Of a stretch of DNA of 41,150 nucleotides, positions 36,240 through 41,032 are shown piece by piece. Both the position numbers and the translations under genes were made by a program. The DNA is from Anaerolineales bacterium (lineage in GTDB: Bacteria > Chloroflexota > Anaerolineae > Anaerolineales > Villigracilaceae). The notes below the pieces were generated by a model that did no database searches, was not told where the DNA came from, and saw only the letters and a list, made by a program, of their open reading frames with translations. The stretch is taken from contig CAKKRM010000199.1 of assembly GCA_919902735.1 (NCBI GenBank), positions 1 through 41,150 of the forward strand. The letters run 5' to 3'. How positions within the stretch are numbered: position 1 is the first letter of the stretch; each line of letters starts with the position of its first letter.

Positions 36240-36240
36240 C

Positions 36241-36338
36241 CAGTTCGAGTTTCAAAGTTGCAGGTTCAAAGTTGAAATTACGAACCTTATAACCTTCAAC
36301 CTGCCACCCGCTAACCTTCCAGCCTGCAACTTTCAAGA
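36241..36338. repeat. Degenerate 7-bp-period repeat, locus H6
   Basis: AACCTTAT, AACCTTC, AACCTGCC, then AACCTTCC, AGCCTGC, AACTTTC at about 7 bp; GTTGCAGG and CCTGCAAC words also pair across it. It occupies the whole gap before the strong AAGGAGG of the next gene. Confidence 0.6.
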
Positions 36339-36350
36339 CAAGGAGGAGTC

Positions 36351-38093
36351 ATGTTATTTCAAGCGACATTATTGGTTGATCTCATGGCAATGGCAACCTG
36401 CCTGTGGATGGCATTCTATCTTTTCGCGCGGGGGTTTCCAAGCAAAGTAACCATGCGGGGGGTGATCCTGCTCCTGGCCCTATCCGCTTTTTTCTTTGGC
36501 GCGTACAACAACCTCTTCAATCAAGTCTCTGGCACAGCCGCATGGCGCGCCACTTTCCTCATCATCGGCATCGCCGCCTGGTACGACCTCACGCTCACCA
36601 TCCTGCCCGATTCGCATCGCAAATCCCTGCTCCCGTGGGCGGTTGGGATTTACACCCTCGGCCTCGTGACCATCGTACTTTTGCTCAGCACGCGCAACGT
36701 CTTCATTGGCGAGCAAGGCAATATATTGTATGTCGCCCGCATGGGAGTCGGCCTGCCTTATATTTTGTATGGGGTTTTTGAGATCGCCGCTTGTTTCGGG
36801 CTTTTCCAGAACCTGCTCTCGCACGGAAAGATCGGCATCACCTCGCAAGGGAAATTTTTTCTGTTCGCATCCATCTTCCCAGTGGTAGGCGTCGCCTACG
36901 GCGTCATCGCCCTTGCCATCTCACCGCCCCTGCCGCGTTTATATCAAGACCTGCTGATCTTCAGCGGCGTCTTTCTGATGGGCATTTCCATAGCACGCCA
37001 TCAAACCCTTGTGGAGCGACGCACGACTCTTCAGGATTTTCCCGTCACCAGCCTGACGATTCTTCTACTAGCCATCGCCTACACCCTGATAGCGCTGCGC
37101 CTCGGACTCCCCCTTCAGTTGGTCGGTCCACTCGTGGCATTTGTGGTGCTGACACATGCCCTGTACGACCTCGTGCGCGAGTTCCTCGAACGTCTGCGCA
37201 TTCGCAGCGAGAGCAGGCTCCGCAAACAATTACGCCAGCTTGAAAATGAAAGTTCCTCAGAAAATACGCTCCGCCTGCGCCTGCAACATGGACTTGATCT
37301 GCTGTGCAGCACGCTCAATGCATATAGCGGGTTTATCGCCATCAAACGGGGAGATGAATTCGTCGTAACAGCGAGCAGGTCTTCGGTCCAGTTGGAGCGG
37401 CATTTTTCTTCGTCCACACTTGCCTACGAAGATATCTCCCACACGCAAAACGACGAAGTTCCAAATATCATCTATTTCGCCCCATCGTTTGACGGGCAAA
37501 CCCAAATTGCCATCGTGGGCATCGGCAAGCCAAACAACAGACTGGATTATTCCCACGGAGACCTGGACCTGCTCTCGGAAGTGGCTGACCAGATCGGCAC
37601 GATCGTTTCGCTGAGCAATGGACAGCCACAGTTTGAGCAGACCTTTGCACAATCGGAAATCAACGAAAATGAAGCGAGCATGGTCGCAGGCGAAATGCTT
37701 GACGCGATGGGCAGCAACCCAGACCAGGAGTTCGTCAAGATTGTCGAAGAAGGCCTGCGCAATTTGTCGGATTATATTGTGCTGGGGCAGTCACCGCTCG
37801 CCGACAAGCTGGGAGTGAAAGCAGGCTCGCACATCGAGCGCGGCAGGGAATTGCAAAAGACCATCGTCGCTTCGATTGAATTATTGCGGCCTGCCGATAA
37901 ACGCCCGCCTGAGCCGCTCCCGCGCGTTTGGTACAACCACGCAGTTCTGCACGATGCCTACGTGGAGGGCGTGCCCAACCGCGAGATCATGGCGCGCTTG
38001 TATATTTCCGAAGGCACGTTCAACCGCACCCGCCGCAACGCCATCCGCGGGTTGGCGAGGTTGTTGATGGAGAAAAAGACGGCAGTGAAATAA
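36351..38093 (+). CDS. Membrane-embedded sensor with GAF-like domain and C-terminal HTH
   Basis: The 580-aa protein has about nine TM segments to residue ~272, a charged helical linker (RLRIRSESRLRKQLRQLENE), a GAF-like domain at roughly 310-425 (GLDLLCSTLNAYSGFIAI to LSEVADQIGTIVSL) and a C-terminal HTH at 525-578 in which NREIMARLYISEGTFNRTRR is the recognition region. No His-kinase or receiver domain is seen. The shape is that of a one-component transcription regulator anchored in the membrane; the ligand is unknown. AAGGAGG precedes the ATG, and a strong terminator follows at 38111, so it is probably monocistronic. HTH assignment is from pattern only. Confidence 0.7.
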   Translation: MLFQATLLVDLMAMATCLWMAFYLFARGFPSKVTMRGVILLLALSAFFFGAYNNLFNQVSGTAAWRATFLIIGIAAWYDLTLTILPDSHRKSLLPWAVGIYTLGLVTIVLLLSTRNVFIGEQGNILYVARMGVGLPYILYGVFEIAACFGLFQNLLSHGKIGITSQGKFFLFASIFPVVGVAYGVIALAISPPLPRLYQDLLIFSGVFLMGISIARHQTLVERRTTLQDFPVTSLTILLLAIAYTLIALRLGLPLQLVGPLVAFVVLTHALYDLVREFLERLRIRSESRLRKQLRQLENESSSENTLRLRLQHGLDLLCSTLNAYSGFIAIKRGDEFVVTASRSSVQLERHFSSSTLAYEDISHTQNDEVPNIIYFAPSFDGQTQIAIVGIGKPNNRLDYSHGDLDLLSEVADQIGTIVSLSNGQPQFEQTFAQSEINENEASMVAGEMLDAMGSNPDQEFVKIVEEGLRNLSDYIVLGQSPLADKLGVKAGSHIERGRELQKTIVASIELLRPADKRPPEPLPRVWYNHAVLHDAYVEGVPNREIMARLYISEGTFNRTRRNAIRGLARLLMEKKTAVK

Positions 38094-38110: not shown

Positions 38111-38151
38111 AGCCCCTGAAGGTTTGCAACCTTCAGGGGCTTTTTATTTTT
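38111..38151 (+). terminator. Rho-independent terminator of the membrane HTH gene
   Basis: AGCCCCTGAAGGTT (38111-38124), loop TGC and AACCTTCAGGGGCT (38128-38141) form a 14-bp perfect GC-rich stem followed by TTTTTATTTTT. Confidence 0.9.
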
Positions 38152-38493
38152 ACGGTGTCATTCTGAGTAAAACCACGGCGAAACAAAGCGCCGTTCATTG
38201 CGTCCTCTTTGGGGAAAGCCAAAGAAACAAGAGCTTCAGCCGCGAATTACACGAATTTTCGCGAACTGGTTTTTAAAATCCGTTTAATTTAGCGAAATTG
38301 GTGGCAAAAAGGGTTTTGAAAATCCTTGTTCCTTAGTAGCGAAGCGAAGAATCCCCGTGACTTTCGTAGAGACCCTTCGCTATCGCTCAGGGTGACATTC
38401 AAGGGGGCTTTTAAAGTTGGCGTCTTTTGGCAGTTCCTGACCTGTCTTTGGCAGTTCAAAAATGCGAAAGTGGGACTACCAAAGGAGTTCGCC
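38152..38493. other. Repeat-rich gap upstream of the TVP38-like gene
   Basis: The region after the terminator holds family B wording (GCGAAGAATC at 38344, then TAGAGACCCTTCGCT near 38366-38380 and TCGCTCAGGGTGAC), CGCGAATTACACGAATTTTCG (a stem near 38241-38261) and GACTTTCG/CGAAAGTGGGACT pairing. AAAGGAG at 38481 is the ribosome-binding site of the next gene. No gene is supported. Confidence 0.65.
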
Positions 38494-39153
38494 ATGAAAA
38501 AAATCTTTACTATAGTATTTCTGGTCGCCGCTTTAGCCGCCGTCTGGATCTTCCGAGTTCCCGCTGCGGATTTGCTCAGCTGGTTCGGAAATCGCGAGGC
38601 TGTTGTCAACTCCATTGAGCAACTTGGGATGTGGGGACCGCTCGTCCTGATCGTCCTGCTTATTCTGCAAGTCTTCCTGGCTTTCATCCCCGGCCAGGCG
38701 CTGATGGTGGCCTGCGGATATGTCTACGGCTTTGGGCTGGGACTCCTGATTTCATGGTTCGGGTTATTCGCAGGCGGGCAAATGGCTTTCGCTCTCGCGC
38801 GCCGCTACGGGCGTCCCTTTGCCGAACGCTGGATCACCCCTGACATTTTATCGAAATGGGACAAGGCCGCAAACGGACAAGGCGTTGGCTTCTATGCCCT
38901 CTCCCTGGTTTTGCCCATCTTCCCCAACGATGCCATGTGCTACGTGGCCGGGCTTGGGAAAATTCAATCCCGCCGCTTCACCGTTGCCAACACCCTTGGC
39001 CGCGGATTGGCCTGCCTGTTCACCAGCGCTGCTGGCGCGTTCGGAAGTCAATTAAGCATTCAAAGCTGGGTCATCATCGCCTTCGTTGTTGTACTGGTTT
39101 GCATCGGCTGGCTCGTCGTCAAAAATTTCAAGCCGAATCTTTTGATCGCATAA
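38494..39153 (+). CDS. TVP38/TMEM64 (DedA-like, VTT domain) membrane protein
   Basis: The ATG at 38494 gives 219 aa, with AAAGGAG six bases upstream; longer readings would include repeat DNA. The VTT core shows IPGQALMVACGYVYGFGLGLL and, later, LPIFPNDAMCYVAGLGKIQSRRF, the F/LP-x-D/N-type second motif, with about six hydrophobic segments. The superfamily acts in lipid scrambling or flipping and membrane homeostasis; the substrate is unknown. Its TAA overlaps the AAAGGAG of the PlsC-like gene, so the two are coupled. Confidence 0.85.
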   Translation: MKKIFTIVFLVAALAAVWIFRVPAADLLSWFGNREAVVNSIEQLGMWGPLVLIVLLILQVFLAFIPGQALMVACGYVYGFGLGLLISWFGLFAGGQMAFALARRYGRPFAERWITPDILSKWDKAANGQGVGFYALSLVLPIFPNDAMCYVAGLGKIQSRRFTVANTLGRGLACLFTSAAGAFGSQLSIQSWVIIAFVVVLVCIGWLVVKNFKPNLLIA

Positions 39154-39164
39154 AGGAGACCGCC

Positions 39165-39848
39165 ATGATGACACCCATTCAAATCTCCCGAATCGTCCTG
39201 AAATCCTATTTCACAATTTTCAACCGCAGCTTTGACGTCAACGAAAACTGTCCCCTGCCCGATGGGCCCAAGATCATTGCGATGAATCACACCCCAGGCT
39301 TCGACCCGCTCTACCTGCCTTTCATTCTCAAAGACACGCCTCACTTTCTCCTGCAAGACGGCATGTTCAATATCCCATTCATCGGTTGGATGCTGAAAGA
39401 GTCAGGCCAGATCCCCGTCTACCGTGGGACGGATAGGGCCAGGGAAGCCAGGGAACAGGCGTGTGAAATCCTGCGCGCAGGCGGGACGATTGCCATCTTC
39501 CCCGAGGGAAAAGATGTCGAGTTCGGAAAACGCATCCCCGCAAAAACAGGTGTTGTGCGAATGGCGCTCGAAACGGGCGCGCCGATCATCCCGCTCGGCT
39601 TGTTCGCACCGAGTCAAAAACTCACCCCGCTTAACTTTCAATGGGAAGGAACCCCGCGCAGCGGAGCATGGCAATTCTCAGGCAAAAGCTACATGCGCAT
39701 TGGAACTCCGTGGATGCCGAAGGCCCATTCAGATATTCACATGCAAACCGAAGAATTAATGGACCGCATCTATTTACTCGTTGCAGAAGCAGAAAAGGAA
39801 TCGCAATGCGTATCGCATACCTTACTCAACCCTATCCCCCAATGGTGA
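39165..39848 (+). CDS. 1-acyl-sn-glycerol-3-phosphate acyltransferase-like (PlsC family)
   Basis: ATG at 39165 gives 227 aa with AAAGGAG seven bases before. NHTPGFD is the NHx4D catalytic motif (near residue 42), GQIPVYRGTDRAREARE the acceptor segment and IAIFPEGKD the FPEG motif. The enzyme transfers a fatty acyl chain to lysophosphatidic acid or a related lipid at the membrane. The last 14 codons overlap the start of the GT4 gene (39806), and the GT4 Shine-Dalgarno lies within this coding region. Whether it makes phosphatidic acid or a special lipid is not known. Confidence 0.85.
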   Translation: MMTPIQISRIVLKSYFTIFNRSFDVNENCPLPDGPKIIAMNHTPGFDPLYLPFILKDTPHFLLQDGMFNIPFIGWMLKESGQIPVYRGTDRAREAREQACEILRAGGTIAIFPEGKDVEFGKRIPAKTGVVRMALETGAPIIPLGLFAPSQKLTPLNFQWEGTPRSGAWQFSGKSYMRIGTPWMPKAHSDIHMQTEELMDRIYLLVAEAEKESQCVSHTLLNPIPQW

Positions 39849-41032
39849 GCGGAGCCTCGATCGTGGCCGAACAACTGGCGCAGGAAATGGCAAACCGCGG
39901 GCACGAGGTACTCGTCATTGCCGCGAGCGAAAAGCAACATGCCTACACCCAAACGGAAGGGAATCTCACGGTCATCCGTCTGATATCCATCAACAACCCG
40001 CTGCGGGTCGGCCAGAAAATTTTACTCGCCCCACGCCGTAAAGTATTACAGGCCCTGCGTGATTTTCAACCAGATGTGATTCACGCCCACGAACCCGTTC
40101 AAATGGGCTCACCTGGCCGCGAGTATGCAAGGCAATCCTGCATTCCCATCACAATGACCACGCACCAACTGCCCTGGTTCGTTGCAAGCTACCTGCCAGA
40201 TAAATTTGGCATCCGCAAGATCGTGGAAGCAGCCCTCTGGAAATATGCAAGCTGGCTGACAAAAGAGTTTTCATCCGTGATCTCACCCACACAAACCATC
40301 TCGCGGATCATCAAGAGTAAAACAGGCACAAAGCCGAGAACCATTTCCTACGGGATCGACCTGCAAATCTTTCATTCGCATTCATCTGCTGAGGAGGAAA
40401 TTGCAACCCGCTGCCAATTTGACCTGCCTTTGAATGCCCCAATCATCCTCCACACTGGCAGGCTTGACACTGATAAATCAGTGGAACGTGTGATCCTCGC
40501 AGCAGGAGCAGCTATTCGGGAGTCCGATGCGTATCTGCTTGTCGTGGGAGATGGCAACCAGAAGCGTTCACTCATCCAGCTTTGCAGGTCGCTTGGCATC
40601 GAGTCACGAGTCCACTTCACTGGCTTTATTTCAAATAAGGAAGAACTTGCAAGGATATACAGAATATCCAGTGTGTTTGTGACCGCCTCCGAAATCGAAA
40701 CCCAGGGCATCGCCATCCTCGAAGCCGCCGCCAGCGGGCTGCCCATCGTGGCGGTCAAGGCCACCTGCATTCCTGAGATCGTACAGCATGGAGTCAACGG
40801 CTACCTCGCCAATCCCGGTGACATTGACGCCATGAGCAGATGCATTGCCAAAATATTAAGTAACCCAGCCAAAGCTTGCGAAATGAAGCTGAAAAGCCGC
40901 GCCATCGCGGAAAAATTCAGGGCAGAGGTCACATTCGCGAAGCACGAAAGACTTTACAAACAGATGATCAGGCAAAAAAGCAGGCAGGCATTCGCCCCCG
41001 AAAAACCAGCCAAAAATCCCCTATACGTTTAG
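39806..41032 (+). CDS. GT4 family glycosyltransferase
   Basis: ATG at 39806 gives 408 aa, with AAAAGGAA five bases upstream, and the gene overlaps the PlsC-like end by 43 bp. It opens MRIAYLTQPYPPMVSGASIV, the N-terminal signature of lipid-linked GT4 enzymes (PimB/monoglucosyl-DAG type), with IHAHEPVQMGSPG and ISPTQTISRIIKSKTG. The donor half has ILHTGRLDTDKSVERVILAA, VVGDGNQKRSLIQL and E-x7-E in EIETQGIAILEAAASG. Coupling to PlsC and TVP38 genes suggests a glycolipid product. The tail is basic (RQKSRQAFAPEKPAKNP). Confidence 0.85.
   Translation: MRIAYLTQPYPPMVSGASIVAEQLAQEMANRGHEVLVIAASEKQHAYTQTEGNLTVIRLISINNPLRVGQKILLAPRRKVLQALRDFQPDVIHAHEPVQMGSPGREYARQSCIPITMTTHQLPWFVASYLPDKFGIRKIVEAALWKYASWLTKEFSSVISPTQTISRIIKSKTGTKPRTISYGIDLQIFHSHSSAEEEIATRCQFDLPLNAPIILHTGRLDTDKSVERVILAAGAAIRESDAYLLVVGDGNQKRSLIQLCRSLGIESRVHFTGFISNKEELARIYRISSVFVTASEIETQGIAILEAAASGLPIVAVKATCIPEIVQHGVNGYLANPGDIDAMSRCIAKILSNPAKACEMKLKSRAIAEKFRAEVTFAKHERLYKQMIRQKSRQAFAPEKPAKNPLYV

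Follow-up and report, generated by a model that had tools for sequence, protein, structure and literature searches.

How might a protein that is anchored in the membrane by many segments act directly on DNA, and on which DNA would it act? The question is raised by a gene in a stretch of 41,150 nucleotides (termed the window) from an Anaerolineales bacterium. Its product, here termed REG, had been described as a sensor wired directly to DNA. All coordinates below refer to the plus strand of the window. REG (36351-38093, 580 aa) starts with an ATG that is preceded by the SD-like motif AGGAGG. Since 18 relatives of 28-90% identity can be aligned over (nearly) the whole length, the reading frame is, as judged from the alignment, not a chance one. 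In the 19-row alignment conservation is highest in the C-terminal 80 residues. The gene is followed by a strong intrinsic terminator (38111-38151; 14-bp stem, loop of 3, T tract), which confirms that it is set off by a terminator of its own. The genes behind this terminator, however, are conserved as well, and a candidate operator is common to them. No tRNA or Rfam match was found in the window. The gap before REG (36240-36340) contains the short repeated words AACCTTC, CCTGC and GTTCAAAG, noticed by eye, and the gap after the terminator (38155-38410) contains GTCATTCTGAG / CGAAGCGAAGAATCC-like words, which we take to be a common bacterial interspersed repeat.

The preliminary description had proposed about nine TM segments and a GAF-like domain, and both were recovered. 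A crude hydropathy count yields nine TM segments in REG (predicted residues 2-276; 36354-37178) and five to ten in its full-length relatives. The full-length AF2 model, calculated from a 10-row alignment of REG and nine relatives (mean pLDDT 64), contains nine long helices (2-28, 32-54, 62-83, 94-113, 135-156, 168-189, 197-220, 230-250 and 255-298), within the last of which we take residues 255-276 as the predicted ninth TM segment. The charges of the predicted loops give a weak signal for an N-out/C-in topology. Behind the TM helices AF2 places an alpha/beta fold of the GAF type (residues 304-422; 37260-37616), followed by a helical C-terminus. Foldseek searches with the model retrieve GAF domains from E 4.1e-3 onwards with a probability of 1.00, no match reaching 0.001, and Pfam GAF_3 matches the excised stretch with an E-value of 1.8e-4, below its gathering score. 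On the modelled topology and the Foldseek matches we count this part as a predicted GAF fold, though the Pfam score stays under the cut-off. Rhodopsins and GPCRs, too, are matched by the full model, presumably via its TM helices (match ranges not shown). We discarded the idea of a retinal protein, as the seventh predicted helix has no lysine.

The C-terminal part, for which a helix-turn-helix (HTH) had been claimed, has two halves. The helical N-terminal half of the Chloroflexota output domain (residues 459-510; 37725-37880) is conserved in a 36-row alignment and reaches block pLDDT values of 82-91 in the C-terminal AF2 model. The second half (residues 525-579; 37923-38087) is similar to the HTH of sigma region 4, as indicated by conservation among relatives, Pfam and weak PDB matches. 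It is nearly invariant in close relatives, and AF2 forms HTH-like helices at residues 525-537, 544-551 and 558-579. Confidence in these helices is low, however (about 33 for the HTH in the full model, with block pLDDT values of about 32-53, and 40-72 in the C-terminal model), the AF2 prediction of the C-terminus on an 11-row alignment is poor (mean pLDDT 63.9), and a search of the PDB with the C-terminal model gave only chance-level fold matches. The structural check thus delivers helices of the expected kind, but is too poor to settle the issue, and no conclusion drawn here depends on the C-terminal model.

Profile searches are divided in a similar way. REG alone has only sub-threshold HTH matches. 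In Pfam, DUF6962 is hit by an excised stretch with E 3.7e-4, below its gathering score, and no gathering score is passed by REG itself, so that by this threshold alone it would not count as having a DNA-binding domain. The family, on the other hand, matches sigma region 4 and HTH models. Among 36 homologous output domains (E up to 1) 31 match DUF1492, 14 HTH_23 and 12 Sigma70_r4_2. When eight output domains were scanned singly, that of L015 passed the gathering scores of Sigma70_r4_2, Sigma70_r4, Sigma70_ECF and HTH_23, that of L041 passed the one of DUF1492, and five of the eight gave nothing at E 0.01. A profile search of the PDB yielded seven weak matches; the best, a ribosomal protein (E 0.025), is taken as chance, and the remaining ones (0.058-0.84) include three sigma factors, the first at 0.058, and NarL. 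Neither HisKA, HATPase or receiver domains (Pfam and NCBIfam, E up to 5) nor a sigma region 2 (Pfam) were matched in REG. The HTH is thus upheld as HTH-like by evidence at the level of the family, and the proposed absence of a kinase agrees with these searches. With a similarity that seems restricted to region 4, REG does not qualify as a sigma-70 family factor.

Low AF2 confidence and the sub-threshold family scores of REG would also fit the case that the C-terminal domain does not bind DNA at all and that REG is a membrane signalling protein with some other output. We consider this most improbable. No non-DNA-binding output module, which would have refuted the original proposal, was matched in REG; the homologous domain of L015 passes sigma-region-4 and HTH gathering scores; a DNA element co-occurs with the output domain, as detailed below; and the same domain is joined to receiver and STAND ATPase domains in other proteins. 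A DNA-binding output is common in proteins with such domains.

To see how far this architecture extends, we surveyed the family and its neighbours. Matches are found in 14 of 41 near genomes; 11 of them belong to the family proper and three (G030, G034, G037) are distant or partial. Ten REG loci come from records named Anaerolineales, Anaerolineaceae, Anaerolineae or Chloroflexi, and relatives recognized by similarity occur in Anaerolineales and other Anaerolineae. Some copies are interrupted or split (L016 in G011:C21, L011/L019 in G015 and L076 in G086), or else these might be assembly errors; an operator-like site persists beside two of the three (G011, G015). The output-domain profile is found in 30 of 101 genomes of the phylum (E up to 0.001), which confirms the remark that C-terminal motifs of this wording are common in Chloroflexota. 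The domain forms the C-terminus of a second 7TM-GAF-HTH type, family B (about 650 aa, L045-L060), which matches HisKA_7TM (E 5e-13 for L045, 2e-12 for L060), is frequent in Chloroflexota and has a member in the window's own genome (G000:C27; L002, L079). That the order of TM, GAF and HTH is unusual, as first stated, has to be tempered: family B is frequent in the same phylum, and polytopic regulators have been surveyed before. Compared by hhalign, REG and family B can be matched along 542 columns with a probability of 99.8 and E 1e-28, and separately over the TM part (probability 93, E 4e-7), the GAF domain (96) and the output domain (99). REG itself has no match to HisKA_7TM (PF16927) and does not reach its gathering score; its relation to this family would be distant and only indirect, via family B, and rests on the TM-only hhalign probability of 93. 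The output domain is also found close to the N-terminus in two other settings: in L013, L040 and L015, where a middle domain and then a C-terminal receiver come after it, and in front of STAND/NB-ARC-type ATPases (L038, L044, L061). This distribution points to a phylum-wide module shared by membrane, receiver and STAND proteins that is scarcely covered by Pfam, whose models as a rule match it weakly.

Membrane-bound regulators are a known class. A survey of transmembrane transcription regulators includes proteins with as many as 22 TM regions, and very few of the many have been tested (PMC10269533). As that survey relied on Pfam DNA-binding models and REG passes no gathering score, we infer that REG was probably missed by it. 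Like ToxR and CadC, REG would be a single chain that senses at the membrane and binds DNA without phosphotransfer (PMC10269533, PMC5936718). These proteins, however, cross the membrane once (bitopic), their winged HTH being N-terminal and their sensor periplasmic, whereas REG has about nine TM segments, a GAF domain and a C-terminal HTH, which places it outside the ToxR/CadC family. The 7TM histidine kinases (HisKA_7TM, PF16927) and LytS/BtsS share a polytopic sensor with REG, which in BtsS consists of six TM segments plus a GAF domain (PMC5936718), but REG has no kinase match and its output is a predicted DNA-binding domain. Proteins of the ChiS family likewise end in a DNA-binding domain, and a combination of 7TMR-DISM with a ChiS-type domain is already in print; the DNA-binding domain is a different one, and the genomes are proteobacterial (PMC8092284). 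A paper on the signalling helix mentions that signalling domains are, at low frequency, linked to HTH domains (PMC1592074). Compared to sigma-70 region 4, ArpU and DUF1492, REG shares the HTH similarity and has a half-site, described below, that resembles TTGACA, but lacks region 2 and carries an extra conserved helical half-domain before the HTH. Family B (e.g. L045, L060, G000:C27) has the domain order of REG, yet its output domain is only 23-30% identical to that of the window and differs in the sequence of the recognition helix. No REG-type operator was seen near family B genes in the stretches examined, most of which lack the gene start. Among the papers listed by our literature searches, which did not cover subscription papers, none was seen to describe the REG family or its operator.

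The candidate operator lies between REG and the next gene (38417-38457). It is a tandem direct repeat of half-sites of the type TTG[GA]CAG, one helical turn apart, with the units TTGGCGTCTT / TTGGCAGTTC / CTGACCTGTC (weak) / TTTGGCAGTTC following each other in steps of 10-11 bp. Its period-21 pair does not occur in any of 100 shuffles of the window. An RNA element was rejected, as Rfam has no match in the window and the repeat is direct rather than inverted. The operator recurs in close relatives, in L027 twice, before each of two genes. When 12 four-unit loci are lined up on the operator without gaps, the operator itself shows a mean pairwise identity of 83% and the 13 nt that follow one of 91%, compared to 25-33% in the 60 nt before it and 54% after. 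Distant relatives (28-54% identity) have a pair with a 10-bp step, roughly TT[AG][AG]CA[GC]TTTTTG[AG]CAGTTTT, located either downstream of REG or, on the opposite strand, upstream of it and aimed at a divergent gene. A half-site matrix built solely from the close clade was tried on these distant loci: none of 200 shuffles reaches the pair in L064, L065, L066, L067, L068, L073, L075 and L078, and at most four of 200 do so in L063, L069 and L077. L070, L072 and L076 failed this test, L070 because its site is placed right at the border of the flank that was scanned, and no good site was found in L204 or in L076, where REG is split in two frames.

We then asked whether site and regulator occur together. 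The 28-bit pattern DRNCASTYTTKGNCASTYTT has exactly four matches in the 41 genomes, all adjoining REG, and its reversed control has none; one match (G029) had not been used for defining the pattern, and one of the REG copies is interrupted (G011:C21). A site model built from 22 sites (R1) gives 18 matches in the same genomes at E up to 0.036, of which 11 adjoin REG, six lie elsewhere in genomes with REG, and one lies inside a long open frame of a genome without it. At E up to 10 the model matches 32 of the 41 genomes, so that weak matches mean little. Among 150 family genomes REG was called in 39 (REG-alignment profile, E below 1e-60, fragments included) and the site in 42 (E up to 0.1), 33 having both. 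The site is thus present in 33 of 39 genomes with REG compared to nine of 111 without it (Fisher p 5e-19). Thirty-two of 61 sites lie within 500 nt of REG and all of these are aimed away from it, 28 downstream on the same strand and four upstream and divergent. In genomes that had not contributed to the model 17 of 36 sites lie within 500 nt of REG, a neighbourhood that covers about 0.02% of their sequence. Unlinked sites, too, are found in 15 of 39 genomes with REG and nine of 111 without (p 4e-5). These p-values overstate the independence of the data because of shared ancestry, because certain genomes outside the training set are closely related to members of it (G120 to L023), and because the REG cut-off of E 1e-60 was set after the list had been seen.

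Eleven of 14 further REG loci that we read had been chosen because of a site match; of the three chosen without one, G244 has a clear four-unit array after REG (matrix score 25.8), G164 a weaker one in the right place (17.1), and G247 nothing convincing. If the best match anywhere in the examined stretch is taken, 38 of 41 REG loci reach a matrix score of 20, many of them being part of the matrix and L023 and L074 counting as one locus. None of 31 sister-architecture loci, two of which overlap, reaches 15 (best 14.9). This control is weaker than it looks, as the sister loci span only 2.0-3.3 kb each, mostly without the gene start, versus 4.4-15 kb for REG loci. The window's own genome has one convincing site, the next model matches having E-values of 0.58 and 2.4. 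A wider regulon in this genome is not supported: the pattern with two mismatches gives 78 matches, below the 124 of the control, and the model matches besides the window site are weak, one that was inspected falling in a long open frame.

Could the repeat belong to another regulator or to an alternative sigma factor, and lie beside REG by chance? The half-site does resemble the -35 hexamer TTGACA, and nine genomes without REG have a site match. At E 0.1, however, 11 such genomes would be expected, so that this number is near chance. Of these sites we inspected six: two appear genuine even though REG was not found there, namely that in G217, which precedes the hydrolase target known from other loci, and that in G248, which lies 138 nt from the end of a contig; the one in G002 is possibly genuine without REG, and those in G235, G147 and G255 are not convincing. 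The best matches track REG and adjoin it in both arrangements over 28-90% identity, and an unsystematic look noticed no other regulator gene recurring beside REG. We hence hold this explanation to be unlikely. On the combination of about nine TM segments, a family-level HTH and a co-occurring operator, REG meets the description of a transmembrane transcription regulator. Its DNA target is inferred from co-occurrence without binding data, and the same applies to the direct wiring of the sensor to DNA that had been suggested, which the domain order supports in addition.

The position of the sites bears on the direction of control. A -10-like hexamer, GAAAGT in the window (38466-38471), lies at a fixed offset. 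Sites with four units have it at 16, counted from the last unit, and sites with two units at 25, counted from the second. At this offset at least four of six positions match TATAAT in 10 of 19 four-unit and 10 of 18 two-unit sites, and none of 2000 shuffles reaches the mean -10 match of either class. One site (G029:C821) has no -10-like box at the usual offset. The ATG of the next gene lies 77 nt from the operator start in the window. Of 19 four-unit sites, 16 have a distance of 75-79 nt (the start of L069c being doubtful), and they precede unrelated genes coding for VTT, PLD, hydrolase, lipoprotein and small 4-TM proteins. The TTGRCA-like words lie 21 or 12 nt from the -10 box and not at the usual spacing of 17 nt, and the sites end upstream of the box, leaving the start uncovered. 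Such a placement and off-spacing are more usual for activator-dependent promoters. A membrane-bound repressor that occupies the repeats and blocks RNA polymerase until a signal arrives would also fit the co-occurrence data, and the operator is close to the promoter; it would not readily explain why the sites stop short of the -10 box and why the TTGRCA-like words are off-spaced. We regard repression as unlikely, though not to be dismissed. Our preferred reading, which we consider probable, is that REG acts as a one-component regulator bound to the membrane and activates envelope genes. Activation is inferred from the site position alone, and regulation from the membrane is likewise an inference, in the absence of localisation, binding or expression data.

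In the window the predicted targets are three genes: a VTT-domain membrane protein (38494-39153; VTT_dom E 1.4e-19), a PlsC-type acyltransferase (39165-39848; Acyltransferase E 3.8e-26) and a GT4-type glycosyltransferase (39806-41032; Glycos_transf_1 E 5e-35, Glyco_transf_4 E 2.8e-24). All three are supported by Pfam and by synteny, and the VTT gene also by its distance from the operator; the starts of the PlsC and glycosyltransferase genes are inferred from the reading frame. Among 13 distinct loci of 57-90% identity, the window included, VTT follows REG in 11, PlsC in seven and the glycosyltransferase in six, counts that are limited by flanks of differing length. VTT is still the next gene in L078, from another genus and with 29% identity to REG. 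The first gene can also code for a PLD-type enzyme or an alpha/beta hydrolase (L071 and L027 checked, others by eye). The cluster in the window suggests that REG controls which lipids or glycolipids make up the membrane, and the VTT-PlsC-GT4, PLD and hydrolase targets together point to membrane lipids; the signal of REG itself is unknown.

The inspected unlinked sites precede, on the same strand, genes for lipoproteins, for polytopic proteins both large and small, and for beta-propeller proteins that have a membrane segment at the N-terminus; one precedes a radical SAM enzyme. In L080, L084 and L085 (G029, G018, G003) they lie before a gene or small operon with a conserved small 4-TM protein, for which the L185 copy has no Pfam match. 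A strongly hydrophobic segment is found in 27 of 31 non-redundant targets compared to 94 of 186 background ORFs (p 8e-5). For this count six near-duplicates were dropped (L063a, L066b, L026, L024, L068, L005), the background is a crude ORF set, and G029:C821 gave no downstream start. Operator targets are thus mostly predicted membrane or exported proteins.

For an activator, the following sequence of events can be envisaged. A REG dimer or oligomer would be re-oriented when the membrane or envelope changes, or when a ligand binds to the membrane part or the GAF domain, and several of its C-terminal domains may then bind the phased TTG[GA]CAG half-sites along the same side of the DNA. Positioned just upstream of a -10 box that lacks a properly spaced -35 element, they would recruit RNA polymerase to transcribe envelope genes, in the window the VTT-PlsC-glycosyltransferase cluster. 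That the half-site resembles TTGACA while the predicted HTH resembles sigma region 4 is suggestive only. A bolder extension, to which we give a modest chance at best, is that of a lineage-specific class of sensors embedded in the membrane whose output mimics sigma region 4, reads tandem TTGRCA half-sites at promoters without a usable -35 and thereby supplies the -35 recognition, pulling envelope promoters and RNA polymerase to the membrane, so that the products would be inserted or exported in step with transcription. What the locus offers is a nine-TM regulator family together with a candidate operator of 41 bp, a promoter geometry that is fixed, and predicted targets in 33 of 150 related genomes. 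In vitro assays and a reporter strain could thus directly address how a polytopic membrane protein acts on DNA.

Next to a distant homologue in G027 (28% identity; L069, G027:C31, about 150.7-156.6 kb) each of five downstream genes has a four-unit element, which we interpret as a putative local regulon array; the five elements, within about 6 kb, were found by reading, their model E-values being merely 0.4-3.7. In L023/L074 (one locus; 90% identity) the VTT cluster is lost while REG and the operator are kept. There the gene next to REG resembles clpC by eye, and the -10 part of the operator promoter is altered (L023 6898-6960, and L074), which gives the impression of a promoter in decay now that its genes are gone. 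Finally, G033 carries tandem arrays of the heptamer TGGCAGT at many contig ends, which are unrelated to the operator.
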